Shown here: piece after piece, positions 16,417 through 23,251 of the stretch
How the letters are laid out: each line of letters begins with the position of its first letter
Numbering within the stretch: position 1 is the first letter of the stretch
From: Desulfosporosinus sp. Sb-LF
Lineage (GTDB): Bacteria; Bacillota; Desulfitobacteriia; Desulfitobacteriales; Desulfitobacteriaceae
Length of the DNA: 64,000 nt
NCBI RefSeq assembly: GCF_004766055.1
Contig: NZ_SPQR01000006.1
Coordinates: forward strand, 186,001 to 250,000
Direction of reading: 5' to 3'
Translations under genes and position numbers: made by a program
Notes under the pieces: model-generated
Seen by the model: the letters and a program-made list of their open reading frames with translations, nothing else
What the model was told of the DNA's origin: nothing
Database searches by the model: none

Positions 16417-17526
16417 GTGCGTGTGATGTTGACGGGTGGTGGAACAGGTGGGCATATTTATCCAGCTTTAGCCATTGCCAAAGGGTTGTTGGCGCGTGAT
16501 GACGAGACTCAAATCCTCTATGTGGGAATTCGGGACGGAATGGAAGCACGTTTGGTGCCAGAGGCGGGTATCGCTTTTGCTGGGATTTCTGGGAAAGGCC
16601 TTCCGCGCCGCTTAAGTTTGGATACTATTAAAGTTTTAGGGCAAAGTGTCAAGGCCTTGTGGGAGACGAAGAAACTTTTGCGTCATTTTCACCCGGATCT
16701 CGTAGTAGGAACTGGGGGATATGTGTCAGGGCCAGTTGTGTTGACCGCTGCCCTGTTTAATATTCCGACGTTACTTCATGAACAGAATGCCTTGCCTGGA
16801 ATCACTAATCGTATTCTTGCGCGGGTTGTACGACGTGTTATGTTAACGTTTCCCGAAAGTATGGAGCATTTTAGTGTCAAAAAGAAGCTGGAGCTCGTAG
16901 GGTTGCCGGTCCGTCCGGAAATAGGAAAGGTATCCCGTGAGGTTGGGGCAAAGCACTTTAAGCTACGACCCAATCGTTTGACCTTGCTTGTGACAGGGGG
17001 AAGCAGAGGGGCACGCACGTTAAATCAGGCTATGATTGGGGTTTTGGAACATCTGGCCCAGCGTTCGGACATTCAGGTGATTTGGGCGACTGGAAAAACG
17101 ACATATATGGAAACTATTGAGGAGTTTAAGAAAAGAGGAATCTCTTGGGAACGTCCAGAGTGGCGGATCCTTGAGTATTTGAACGCTATGCCAGAAGCCT
17201 TAGCCTGTTCGGATATCTGCATTGGTCGGGCTGGGGCGGCATCCTTAGCTGAGATGCAGGTTGCAGGTATTCCGAGCATTCTGATTCCCTATCCATTTGC
17301 TGCAGAAAATCATCAAGAACATAATGCTCAAGCCATGGTGCAAGCGGGCGCAGCTCGAATTATTTTGGATCGTGAATTGGATGGGGAACGCCTGTGGAAG
17401 GAAGTGGAGGGGTTGATTTCTCAACCTAAGCTTCTCGCTAAAATGGGAACTGCTGTCCAGACGCTGGCGCAACCACAAGCTTTGAATAAAATTGTCGACC
17501 TATGTAGAGCTACTGCATGGCACTGA
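16417..17526 (+). CDS. murG: Lipid II synthase MurG (GlcNAc transferase)
   Basis: A 369-residue GT-B glycosyltransferase adding GlcNAc to lipid I. The N-terminal GGGTGGHIYPALAIAKGL motif, ADLH-type loop VVGTGGYVSGPVVL, LLHEQNALPGITNR, VTGGSRGARTLN and the UDP-GlcNAc site GRAGAASLAEMQVAGIPSIL are all present, as is PYPFAAENHQEHNA. GTG start with AAAGGGG upstream. The usual next gene is murC, and here a murC-like remnant lies in that position. Confidence 0.96.
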   Translation: MRVMLTGGGTGGHIYPALAIAKGLLARDDETQILYVGIRDGMEARLVPEAGIAFAGISGKGLPRRLSLDTIKVLGQSVKALWETKKLLRHFHPDLVVGTGGYVSGPVVLTAALFNIPTLLHEQNALPGITNRILARVVRRVMLTFPESMEHFSVKKKLELVGLPVRPEIGKVSREVGAKHFKLRPNRLTLLVTGGSRGARTLNQAMIGVLEHLAQRSDIQVIWATGKTTYMETIEEFKKRGISWERPEWRILEYLNAMPEALACSDICIGRAGAASLAEMQVAGIPSILIPYPFAAENHQEHNAQAMVQAGAARIILDRELDGERLWKEVEGLISQPKLLAKMGTAVQTLAQPQALNKIVDLCRATAWH

Positions 17527-17622
17527 TCTAGTGTAAGATAATCCCTTTTGAACCCACCTGCTCACACCTTTTTACTCCAATGCATAGCATATGGCAGTAG
17601 GCAAATGAAAGGAGTGAGCAGG

Positions 17623-18477
17623 GTGTGGCCGAAGCGAAAAATACAATTGATAGCTTCTTCTGCGGCCCCTGGAATAGACGGAGTTCGGGCCGTGTTAAAA
17701 GAGATTCAGCTGGAATTCCTTGAGATTGACCCAGCAAGGGAGAAGTTTACCTCCGAATTTACAGAAACTTGGCTAGAAAAGCCGATAGATCATGGATTTA
17801 CGGAATCAGGTCCTGCGACAGAATTAGTATTCTGGTCAGAGGGGACTGAATATGAGTACTGGCGAGAAAGGGCAATCGCTCAAGGTTTAAGACAGCAATC
17901 TATTCAATCGTTTATACATACTATTTTGCATGACGAAATCCTTATCAGGATTCCTGAACCGACTGTTTTTATTCAAGAGCGGCCTTTGTTGGGGCATGTT
18001 TTAGATGAGGCAGGGTTTGAACCGACTATACTCTGGCCACAGGCAGATGGAAAATGGCTTTGCGTAAGGAAGCAGGGCTTACATTGGGTGATCCCAGAGT
18101 CCTGGATGGTGGGATTAGAGGAAGAAAGTTCGTTGGGAAGAAAGGCTACACGGGTTGATAATAAGGCAACTTGGAGAGTCCGTGATAATGGAGTTGACTT
18201 TTATCAGGGACAAGAGGGGCAGAAATTTGTGGGCTATTTGCCTCGTTGGCCAGTCCTGAAGGATGAAGAAGTAGCAGCCCAAAACATTGCGCAGTGCATA
18301 GATTTGGGAGTTTCCTGGCTGGATATTAGGTTGGCCCTCAGTTCTAGTTTCAATAACATAATAAAGACGGACAACTTGAGGTGGAACAACGATGATTTTA
18401 GATGGAATGCCAGGGCGTGTGGAGAAAAATTACCCGCTGCACCAATTGACTACGTGGAAGATTGGTGGGCCCGCTGA
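17623..18477 (+). CDS. Degenerate MurC-like protein lacking P-loop and C-terminal domain
   Basis: This 284-residue protein sits where murC is normally found. I see three blocks of MurC-like pattern. Residues 5-100 read as the N-terminal Rossmann domain (IASSAAPGIDGVRAVLKEI, LEIDP, LVFWSEGTEYEYWRERAIAQG). Residues 115-135 (VFIQERPLLGHVLDEAGFEPT) match the segment around the MurC P-loop and its following helix, but the GTHGKT residues are absent. Residues about 180-250 (RVRDNGVDFYQ, EEVAAQNIAQCIDLGVSW, DIRLALSSSF) match the end of the central domain. No C-terminal ligase domain exists, and residues 257-284 overlap murB in another frame. It cannot act as an ATP-dependent ligase. The GTG at 17623 follows AAAGGAG by 8 nt. 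Homology is judged by eye, so an unrelated protein is possible. Confidence 0.6.
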   Translation: MWPKRKIQLIASSAAPGIDGVRAVLKEIQLEFLEIDPAREKFTSEFTETWLEKPIDHGFTESGPATELVFWSEGTEYEYWRERAIAQGLRQQSIQSFIHTILHDEILIRIPEPTVFIQERPLLGHVLDEAGFEPTILWPQADGKWLCVRKQGLHWVIPESWMVGLEEESSLGRKATRVDNKATWRVRDNGVDFYQGQEGQKFVGYLPRWPVLKDEEVAAQNIAQCIDLGVSWLDIRLALSSSFNNIIKTDNLRWNNDDFRWNARACGEKLPAAPIDYVEDWWAR

Positions 18478-19276
18478 GGCTGTGTATTGGCCTAATACAA
18501 CGGATGATATGCTGAGCGTGTGGAAGTGTGCTCAGGAAGCAAAAATACCGGTTTGGTTGATCGGGAAGGGTTCGAATCTGTTGGTATCTGATGAGGGGCT
18601 CCCTGGAATTACGATAGTGACTACATCCCTTCGCGCGATTCAATGGGGGGAGTATTCGGTTCGGGTTGAAGCGGGGTACACTTTAGCACGTTTATCCCAA
18701 GAAGCGGGTGAACGTGGGTGGAGTGGCCTTGAATTTGCTCGAGGAATTCCAGGATCTGTTGGCGGTGCCATTATGATGAACGCTGGTGCCCATGGAGGGG
18801 AAATGGCTCCGCATATTTTGAGTGTCACCGCACTTTGTGCAGATGGGGAAATCAAGAAATTTGAACGATCAGAGCTTGAATTTGCATATCGCTTTTGTTC
18901 TTTGCGTGGTTACGCATGGGTATTGGAAGCTCAACTTGCGTTTTCAGCGGGAAATCGTGAAAAGATTTTAATTGAGATGAGAGAAAACCTTATTAAAAGG
19001 GCCGCCAATCAACCGCTTGAGGACCCTAATGCAGGCAGTGTTTTTCGTAATCCACCTGGTGATTCAGCAGGCAGATTAATTGAAGCAGCGGGGTGGAAAG
19101 GGAAAACCTTTGGAGGTGCTCAAGTTTCGAATAAACATGCCAATTTTATAGTAAATACGGGCAAGGCCAAGTCAACAGATGTGCTGGCTCTAGTGGATGC
19201 CATTCAGAGAGATATTCAGATGAAATTTGGAATCACCTTGCAAACTGAAGTAGAGTATCTTGTGCCAAATTCATAG
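18392..19276 (+). CDS. murB: UDP-N-acetylenolpyruvoylglucosamine reductase MurB
   Basis: A 294-residue FAD enzyme reducing UDP-GlcNAc-enolpyruvate to UDP-MurNAc with NADPH. It shows the FAD-binding TTWKIGGPAEAVYWP, GKGSNLLVSDEGLPG, FARGIPGSVGGAIMMNAGAHGGEM, the catalytic serine segment EDPNAGSVFRNP and the C-terminal LQTEVEYL with the active-site glutamate. It is of the shorter type II form common in Firmicutes. The ATG at 18392 follows AGGTGG and the domain begins soon after, so the 86-bp overlap with the upstream murC-like gene appears real. Confidence 0.95.
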   Translation: MILDGMPGRVEKNYPLHQLTTWKIGGPAEAVYWPNTTDDMLSVWKCAQEAKIPVWLIGKGSNLLVSDEGLPGITIVTTSLRAIQWGEYSVRVEAGYTLARLSQEAGERGWSGLEFARGIPGSVGGAIMMNAGAHGGEMAPHILSVTALCADGEIKKFERSELEFAYRFCSLRGYAWVLEAQLAFSAGNREKILIEMRENLIKRAANQPLEDPNAGSVFRNPPGDSAGRLIEAAGWKGKTFGGAQVSNKHANFIVNTGKAKSTDVLALVDAIQRDIQMKFGITLQTEVEYLVPNS

Positions 19277-20802: not shown

Positions 20803-21528
20803 ATGCAACCCAAGAAAATAAATACGTCCTTTCTCTATGTCGTTGTCTTGACGATTTTGCTTTCACTGGGTTTAGCTCTTTTCTTACGTTCTAGTGCTTT
20901 TGCGGTTGAGCACGTAATGGTACAGGGGCTTAAGCTGATCCCGGAAAACGAAATCTTAAAACTGGCCTACGGGATTCAAGGACAAAACTTGTTTCTACTT
21001 GATCAGCAGGGACTTGGTCATAAGATCTCCTTGCATCCGCTTGTTCAGAGTGTTCAGTTTCAACGGAAACTTCCTCAGACCCTAGTCATTCAGGTAACAG
21101 AACGAACTCCAGTTGCCCTGGTTGTTGTTCCCAAAGGGGTCTTGGAGGTGGATGCACAAGGATTTTTCTTGCGCCGTTTGGAGAGCTGGCCTAAGACAGA
21201 TCATCCTGTCATCACAGGAATTAATCTCACGGATACCGTGGGACCAGGGCAAAATTTAATGAATCCTTCCCTCACTTCCGCATTAAGCCTGCTAGGACAG
21301 GCCCCCCCAGAATTACTTACCCAGATTGGGGAACTTCATTTAAATACTAGCCAACAAATGACGTTGTATTTAAATAGTGGGGTCGAAGTCCGCCTGGGAC
21401 AAGCTAAGGATTGGAAAGATAAATTGAACGCGCTTTTTCAACTTATTAACGATAAAGGGTATAAATCGTTTCAACAGGGGGTACGATACATTGATTTCAC
21501 GGCGGCAAAACCAGTAATAGGCCGCTAA
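20803..21528 (+). CDS. ftsQ: Cell division protein FtsQ/DivIB
   Basis: A 241-residue bitopic membrane protein. A short cytoplasmic N-terminus is followed by one span (FLYVVVLTILLSLGLALFL), then a POTRA domain beginning SSAFAVEHVMVQGLKLIPENEILKLAYGIQGQNLF, a family-like PLVQSVQFQRKLPQTLVIQVTERTPVALV, and the conserved C-terminal part ending GVRYIDFTAAKPVIG. It scaffolds FtsL/DivIC and is needed for division and sporulation septation. It has a strong AAGGAGGAAG ribosome binding site. Confidence 0.93.
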   Translation: MQPKKINTSFLYVVVLTILLSLGLALFLRSSAFAVEHVMVQGLKLIPENEILKLAYGIQGQNLFLLDQQGLGHKISLHPLVQSVQFQRKLPQTLVIQVTERTPVALVVVPKGVLEVDAQGFFLRRLESWPKTDHPVITGINLTDTVGPGQNLMNPSLTSALSLLGQAPPELLTQIGELHLNTSQQMTLYLNSGVEVRLGQAKDWKDKLNALFQLINDKGYKSFQQGVRYIDFTAAKPVIGR

Positions 21529-21546
21529 GCAGGGGGGATTTGGAAG

Positions 21547-21876
21547 ATGTGGTTACCACTCTTGGGATTGGTTTTAGGATTGGCAATTGGGTATGTCAGC
21601 CCTTTTTCAGTCCCGATTGAATATGCTAAATACTTATCTGTGGGGATCCTTGCGGCTTTGGATTCGGTCTTAGGTGGAATACGTTCTGCACAAGAGGATC
21701 ATTTTGATAGTGCGGTGTTTCTGACAGGCTTTTTTAGTAACATGCTCCTAGCAGCTTTCTTGGCATACGTCGGAGACCGTATTGGGGTTGATCTTTACTT
21801 GGCAGCGGTATTGGCATTTGGTGTTCGTCTGTTCCAAAACTTGGGCAGTATACGACGCCATCTAATAAAGAAGTAA
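21547..21876 (+). CDS. sbp: Small basic protein Sbp (DUF1290)
   Basis: A 109-residue membrane protein with three or four spans: residues 1-22, the region around SVGILAALDSVLGG, and VFLTGFFSNMLLAAFLAYVG. It ends in a basic tail (RRHLIKK). The segment ALDSVLGGIRSAQEDHFD is typical of the DUF1290/Sbp family that lies between divIB and ftsZ in many Firmicutes. Its function is unknown. It is spaced 18 bp from ftsQ and should be co-transcribed with it. Confidence 0.85.
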   Translation: MWLPLLGLVLGLAIGYVSPFSVPIEYAKYLSVGILAALDSVLGGIRSAQEDHFDSAVFLTGFFSNMLLAAFLAYVGDRIGVDLYLAAVLAFGVRLFQNLGSIRRHLIKK

Positions 21877-21899
21877 TATGGACTAAATAGATGATTAAG

Positions 21900-21929
21900 T
21901 TGAAGAAATTCCTAGAAAATTTTTATACT
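21900..21929 (+). promoter_or_regulatory. Candidate promoter in the ftsZ upstream region
   Basis: TTGAAG and TATACT are 18 bp apart. The whole 310-bp gap (21877-22186) is very AT-rich and contains two more TATAGT-like -10 boxes (near 21992 and at 22148) without good -35 partners. A long leader before ftsZ with several promoters is plausible, as ftsZ is often strongly and separately expressed. Confidence 0.35.
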
Positions 21930-22186
21930 AAAAAAAAGGGATAAAGCATAAACACATAGAATTCATTATGATGTGTGCATTTAAGGTAAAAAGGTATAGT
22001 TTTGCACGTTAATGGGTAGGTTTTAAAGCGCGATTAGTAGCAGTAGAAAGAAAAAAACTCTAATTGTATAAGTGCAATGATTATTTTTTACTTACGGCGT
22101 TTGAACAGCAGACTCGAATTTAGTTATAACCTGTACTTTATCCAAAGTATAGTAGTTCAGAATGAAGCGAGGGGGTTAAAGCCTAA

Positions 22187-23251
22187 ATGCTAGAATTTGA
22201 TACTGATTTAAACCAATTTGCAGAGATCAAGGTGATCGGTGTTGGTGGTGGGGGAAACAATGCGGTGAACCGTATGATTACCGCTGGCTTACAAGGGGTA
22301 GATTTTGTTACAGTAAATACTGATTCACAGGCTTTACAACTATCACGTGCCGGTCAAAAAGTGCAAATAGGGATTAAGTTAACTAAAGGACTGGGAGCAG
22401 GGGCAAATCCGGAAATCGGAGCTAAGGCGGCAGAAGAAAGCCGTGAAGAAATCGCTAAAGTCTTAAAGGGAGCGGATATGGTCTTCGTCACAGCAGGGAT
22501 GGGGGGCGGAACGGGAACAGGAGGGGCACCTATCGTTGCGGAAGTGGCTAAGGAAATGGGAGCACTCACAGTAGGCGTGGTCACTCGTCCGTTCACTTTT
22601 GAGGGCCGTAAACGGGCCATGCAAGCGGAAAAGGGAATTGCTGAGCTTAAAAGCAAAGTGGATACACTCATAACGATTCCGAATGACCGTTTGCTGCAAG
22701 TGGTGGACAAGCATACTACGATCCATGAAGCTTTTCGCATAGCTGATGATGTCCTGAGACAAGGGGTACAAGGGATTTCAGATTTAATTGCAGTTCCTGG
22801 TCTGATAAATTTGGACTTCGCCGATGTCAAGACCATTATGTCGAATACAGGGTCTGCACTGATGGGTATTGGCCAGGCAACAGGGGAAAATCGTGCAGCA
22901 GATGCCGCTCGTAAAGCAATTTCAAGTCCGTTGCTGGAAACTTCTATTGAAGGTGCTAAAGGAGTGCTTCTCAACATCACTGGTGGAATTAATTTAACTC
23001 TCTTTGAAGTCAACGAGGCTGCAGGCATTATTGCAGAAGCTGCAGATCCAGAAGCGAATATCATCTTTGGTGCAGTTATCGATGAGAACCTAAAGGAAGA
23101 ACTTCGAGTAACTGTCATAGCCACTGGATTTGATCAACAATGGGGCGGCTTTGGGCTGGAACCGGGAAAATCTCAGGAGAACATTATTAAACCTGTAGCA
23201 GCAACAGAAGTCGACATCGATATTCCAGAATTTTTGAGAAGACGTCGTTAA
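22187..23251 (+). CDS. ftsZ: Cell division protein FtsZ
   Basis: A 354-residue tubulin-like GTPase forming the Z ring. Signatures are [21 protein letters not shown], the tubulin loop [23 protein letters not shown] and the catalytic NxxFAD-type region. A very short linker leads to the conserved C-terminal peptide [12 protein letters not shown], which binds FtsA and SepF. SepF is encoded at 37.2 kb in this window; I see no ftsA. AGCGAGGGGG precedes the ATG. Confidence 0.98.

Follow-up and report, generated by a model that had tools for sequence, protein, structure and literature searches.

In the cell-wall gene cluster of Desulfosporosinus sp. Sb-LF, the place between murG and murB is taken by an open gene, here called X, which probably is a remnant of the ancestral dcw murC, kept throughout the spore-forming family Desulfitobacteriaceae as a pseudoenzyme. 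The term pseudoenzyme is used because a homologue of the active type is encoded elsewhere in the genome and because X is under purifying selection. X lies in the window, by which we mean the whole stretch of 64,000 nucleotides that was analysed.

Gene X and its neighbours

X (17623..18477, forward strand) begins with GTG and runs through 284 codons plus a stop in an open frame. An AGGAG ribosome binding site (17610..17614, +) is located 8 nt 5′ of the GTG, and an SD-like site precedes the X start in 41 of 42 relatives. The upstream neighbour murG (16417..17526, +) and the downstream neighbour murB (18392..19276, +) matched the NCBIfam models TIGR01133 (E 1e-91) and PRK13905 (E 1.6e-103), respectively. 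The unbroken 284-codon gene between murG and murB and its good ribosome binding site, as described in the original prediction made from the sequence alone, were thus both confirmed. Within the X region, no RNA family was found, nor any convincing promoter or terminator. Farther along the same cluster (window 20803–23251), the interval between ftsQ and ftsZ is without ftsA and holds a small membrane-protein ORF instead (21547–21876), which resembles the DUF1290 type.

The product of X matched no Pfam or NCBIfam model even at E 10, and it was not among the own-genome matches to the MurC model TIGR01082 (cut-off 335.1 bits). A sequence search against the PDB returned no MurC; the sole match was Fanconi protein C with an E value of 1.1, which is not significant. 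Because X fails these sequence-defining tests of MurC, we do not call it MurC.

Predicted fold of X

The structure of X was predicted with AlphaFold2 from 23 family members, without templates and without any MurC sequence in the input. In the resulting model (pTM 0.70), residues 2–243 (17626..18351, +) were mostly well modelled, and confidence was low at residues 41–62 and 247–284, with pLDDT below 50 across the latter. The model and the alignment divide this part into an N-terminal Rossmann-like domain (about residues 5–104) and a shortened central domain (about 105–243). When the model was compared with the PDB by Foldseek, ranks 1–26 were all MurC (best E 3.0e-7), followed by Mpl at rank 27, MurC again at rank 28 and then mainly MurD. 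VIA-align superposed residues 2–242 of the model on residues 17–321 of a MurC chain with a Z of 12.1 and an rmsd of 4.1 over 211 residues. A second model, built for a relative that shares 35% identity with X, likewise placed MurC at Foldseek ranks 1–16 (best E 1.5e-4). According to these predicted models, X has the fold of the N-terminal and central domains of MurC. Structure prediction had been named as a check of the MurC assignment, and it returned MurC as the best PDB match and no clear unrelated fold.

Sequence-level comparison with Mur ligases

In profile–profile comparison, X scored 33–38 against MurC and MurD, 16–18 against MurE and MurF and 10–25 against four unrelated families. The hhalign match to the MurC of its own genus was weak because that profile is shallow; deeper MurC profiles improved the comparison, with probabilities against MurC profiles still at 15–40%, and because these are low the homology claim is carried by the fold. 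When the X profiles were block-shuffled, the score against dcw-type MurC was reached in 2 of 60 runs and those against Bacillus-like MurC and MurD in 0 of 60. In view of this outcome, sequence comparison alone is insufficient to settle the identity of X. Global hhalign against Bacillus-like MurC gave no usable alignment.

The alignment of X with MurC is collinear, and in it AGFEPT of X falls on G[LF]DPT of MurC. Aligned together with 20 dcw-type and 59 Bacillus-like MurC, X showed about equal identity to the two types (15.8% and 13.8%, respectively). When the HMM of the X family was run on whole genomes outside the family, six weak matches were obtained; five lay collinearly within MurC genes. 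Across 398 genomes of the phylum, the X profile gave four matches outside the family, three of which fell within MurC genes, and in the sister family f3 two more genes were matched, both within the MurC match of their genome. A match in genome G105 contains stop codons and was judged to be due to chance. The profile scores and family-HMM matches agree with the two predicted models, in which MurC ranks first, and the earlier description of X as a truncated MurC homologue is upheld.

Catalytic parts lost or replaced

The place of the MurC P-loop (GTHGKTTT) is occupied in X by PEPTVFIQERP (residues 111–121; 17953..17985, +), which has no Walker A motif, and none of 24 aligned X family sequences has GKT at the P-loop columns. 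The P-loop residues had been described as gone; the motif is indeed absent, but the segment has been replaced and not deleted. The N-terminal UDP-MurNAc loop GxGGxGM(S) was not found in X either. ASSAAPGIDG stands there, the GxGGxG pattern is lost and only two glycines of this region are nearly invariant.

The central part of X has about 63 residues fewer than that of MurC (241 versus 305 by VIA-align, 168 versus 230 in the profile alignment), so that the predicted loss of 60–100 central residues is real and lies at the low end of that range. The segment corresponding to the Mg and histidine motifs of MurC is shortened. The C-terminal domain, which binds the amino acid and contains the DDYAHHP region, is absent, as predicted: residues 247–284 of X are unmodelled, and from residue 257 they are encoded by murB DNA. 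A protein without these Mur ligase motifs should be unable to ligate L-alanine. From its sequence, then, we infer that X lacks L-alanine ligase activity.

A complete murC elsewhere and the history of the slot

A single full-length MurC is encoded on a different contig of the Desulfosporosinus sp. Sb-LF genome (473 bits with TIGR01082). This complete murC (locus L001, G000:C5:261324-265655) is located apart from other cell-wall genes; it is flanked by a cytochrome b-like ORF on one side and by nucleotidase-like and NAD synthetase-like ORFs on the other, the names being read from their sequences. Each of the 30 genus genomes has a complete murC scoring above the curated cut-off, and a complete murC was also present in all 35 further genomes of the family and order, 34 of them over the cut-off. 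A full murC elsewhere, the search for which had been named as a check, was thus found in every one of these genomes. The distal MurC carries GIKGTGMS and ESCEYRRHF, which we take to be features of Bacillus MurC, and its activity is assumed from the intact motifs.

In the outgroup order of the same class and the other genomes of the phylum examined, MurC has the GIGGxGMS form and murG is upstream in nearly all. The gene order ftsW-murG-murC-murB-murA was seen in the sister order and in most loci examined from the phylum. A complete murC at this place in relatives, the absence of which had been named as a ground for refutation, was seen in the form of a normal dcw-type murC in the sister order. 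In contrast, in two sister families of the same order, f2 and f3, murG is followed directly by murB and the slot is empty. The earlier view of murC as the usual occupant of the slot accordingly holds for the sister order and for most sampled dcw loci of the phylum, but not for these two families.

In a tree of X and both MurC types, the X branch was about 3.2 substitutions per site. The tree is weakly consistent with a placement of X outside the Bacillus-like MurC clade; because the branch is so long, the parent copy is argued from position and not from the tree. The simplest course of events would be that the ancestor of the order, before the order diversified, gained a second murC of the Bacillus-like type, which took over catalysis. 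The dcw murC, now redundant, would then have been deleted in the sister families f2 and f3, and Desulfitobacteriaceae would have kept a version shortened by loss of the 3′ third as far as murB. The deletion of the 3′ end of murC up to murB, which had been proposed earlier, fits the anatomy of X; the event itself is one that we infer, and no intermediate between a full dcw murC and X was found.

Two strong murC matches per genome were observed in G090, G097, G128, G135, G160 and others, which come from several lineages of the phylum; in these, too, murC may have been duplicated or replaced.

Conservation of X and selection on it

In a single-protein search, 44 of the 46 family genomes had an orthologue of X (27–65% identity), as did each of the 30 genomes of the genus. 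In the fetched loci murB is just downstream of X in every case and murG just upstream except on one cut-short contig, so that the order murG-X-murB, when looked for in relatives, was seen across the family. An alignment of 24 family members contained invariant positions over residues 1–232. Conservation was strongest at the start of the protein (MWPKRK) and at residues 121–173 (17983..18141, +; PLL..L.EAGFEPS.LW ... W ... G..W..P..W ... GR). The latter block lies where MurC has its ATP/Mg site and contains four of the best-conserved tryptophans of the family, W138, W145, W155 and W161, each of which is present in 96–100% of the sequences.

We estimated dN/dS by the Nei-Gojobori method, with the murB overlap excluded, for 250 pairs with dS below 2. 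The values for X were 0.13–0.49 with a median of 0.24, compared with 0.08 for murG and 0.12 for murB, and for each of the ten pairs that yielded an estimate the bootstrap upper limit stayed under 1, in two of them narrowly. X is thus constrained as a protein, less than murG and murB are, and it is under purifying selection. The earlier suggestion that the open frame is kept under selection, for which dN/dS across orthologues had been named as a check, was borne out by these values and by the presence of X in 44 of 46 family genomes.

X can nevertheless be lost and is not universally required, because in one family genome (G044, locus L153) murG is followed directly by murB, with about 100 nt between the two genes and no X, whereas G045 of the same genus has X. 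In the fragmentary genome G021 (L038), two collinear pieces of X were matched and the middle (about residues 147–199) was not, which may reflect an internal deletion or an assembly fault.

Possible role of X

Mur ligases may have a structural role besides catalysis, which is usually hard to test because the enzymes are essential. In Desulfitobacteriaceae evolution appears to have separated the two roles, leaving one MurC that is catalytic and one MurC-shaped protein without the catalytic motifs, the latter family-wide in the cluster. A core cell-wall gene was apparently displaced by its own second version within an ancient, conserved gene cluster.

We tentatively propose that X is kept for binding: it would act as a MurC “place-holder” and touch MurG, MurB or other Mur ligases within the cytoplasmic assembly that makes the precursors. 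X would be made together with MurG and MurB from the same gene cluster, and its conserved tryptophan-rich block would fit a binding surface in place of an active site. MurB-MurC and MurG-MurC fusion proteins exist in some bacteria, and in other bacteria MurG has been proposed to act as a scaffold for Mur ligases (PMC6420597). Given these fusions, the proposed MurG scaffold and the position of X between murG and murB, a non-catalytic partner role seems the likeliest function and the most economical one. Somewhat more speculatively, a Mur ligase stripped of catalysis at its native dcw place may have become a dedicated binding subunit, in which a tryptophan-rich interface has taken the place of the ATP site. 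The dead copy would then fill the MurC position in the cytoplasmic Mur assembly, and the unlinked MurC would catalyse. In the open-access literature we found nothing relevant on MurC or any Mur ligase as a pseudoenzyme, and in the literature on MurC in Desulfitobacterium no description of X; we thus found no published description of X, which would represent a MurC-derived pseudoenzyme family.

A regulator and a structural partner of Mur enzymes had both been raised as possible roles in the original prediction. The main rival to the scaffold role is that X is a regulator, its tryptophan-rich former active site binding a ligand or the distal MurC (e.g., in an inhibitory or stabilising heterodimer) and thereby tuning precursor synthesis. 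The coincidence of the strongest conservation in X with the ATP/Mg site of MurC suggests a new use of the pocket. However, the sister families run the same Bacillus-like MurC without X, so that this MurC needs no X, and the conserved tryptophans may be core packing only. We therefore regard a regulatory role as unlikely.

X might also act mainly as a translated leader that couples translation of murB to that of murG, its protein sequence hardly mattering. The murB ribosome binding site AGGTGG (18379..18384, +) is located inside X, where it encodes the conserved R253-W254, and an SD-like site is found 5′ of murB in 41 of 43 loci. X then overlaps the 5′ end of murB by 86 nt (18392..18477, +) and stops at an out-of-frame TGA in the murB GGPAEA motif. 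Such an overlap of 86 nt is seen in most relatives. Three others have 53 nt and one has 38 nt, and in a few the two genes share 1 nt or none. X ends 28 nt upstream of murB in L021 and L032, which indicates that the overlap is not essential. The dN/dS of 0.13–0.49 outside the overlap and the invariant residues of the folded part need selection at the protein level, and we consider the leader explanation improbable. The sequence of X is variable past residue 243, and because the length of the murB overlap differs among relatives, the tail is outside the conserved protein. The MurC-like pattern had been drawn to about residue 252 with murB in another frame thereafter; the out-of-frame reading of murB, from residue 257, was correct, but the fold ends at about residue 243. 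In L068, L069, L077 and L078, the alignments of MurB to the window MurB are 24–33 residues longer, which points to an insertion.

That X is a functionless relic in decay, open by chance, would agree with an evolutionary rate two to three times that of murG and murB, with the variable length of its tail and with its loss from one family genome. However, the X frame is open in nearly all genomes across nine genera, with identity down to 27% and at least 10 invariant residues, and a neutral frame is not expected to survive such divergence with a dN/dS well below 1. A retained protein is favoured over a decaying relic, for which the chances appear slim. It is very improbable that X is an unrelated Rossmann-like protein resembling MurC by chance or convergence, as the failure of the Pfam, NCBIfam and PDB sequence searches to return MurC and the low hhalign probability might suggest, since MurC is the top-ranked match of both predicted models across the two domains, this two-domain match is an arrangement specific to Mur ligases and X occupies the murC slot.

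Comparison with known systems

Among known proteins, X as a retained, MurC-derived protein is closest to dcw-type MurC (UDP-N-acetylmuramate--L-alanine ligase, TIGR01082), with which it shares the fold of the N-terminal and central domains, the order of secondary structures, the helix after the P-loop followed by AG[FL][ED]P[ST] and the place between murG and murB. Unlike this enzyme, X has no P-loop, no GxGGxGM loop and no C-terminal domain, is about 63 residues shorter centrally and is unrecognised by the MurC model, and its conserved tryptophans are not in MurC. The Mur ligase fold is also shared by Mpl (murein peptide ligase; 3eag, Z 11.6) and MurD (Z up to 8.8). In contrast to X, both are active three-domain ligases, and MurD matches X more weakly than MurC does.

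Among Mur ligase homologues with another job, the nearest precedent is the plant MurE-like PAP11, a plastid RNA polymerase-associated protein in a complex outside the peptidoglycan pathway, the molecular activity of which is listed as unknown (PMC4080259). PAP11 is eukaryotic and derived from MurE, and it is compared with X as a precedent, not as a relative in sequence or function. The MurC part of the MurB-MurC and MurG-MurC fusions differs from X in that it is not described as inactive in PMC6420597 and belongs to other organisms; the fusions resemble the role proposed here for X in that they link MurC physically to MurB or MurG.
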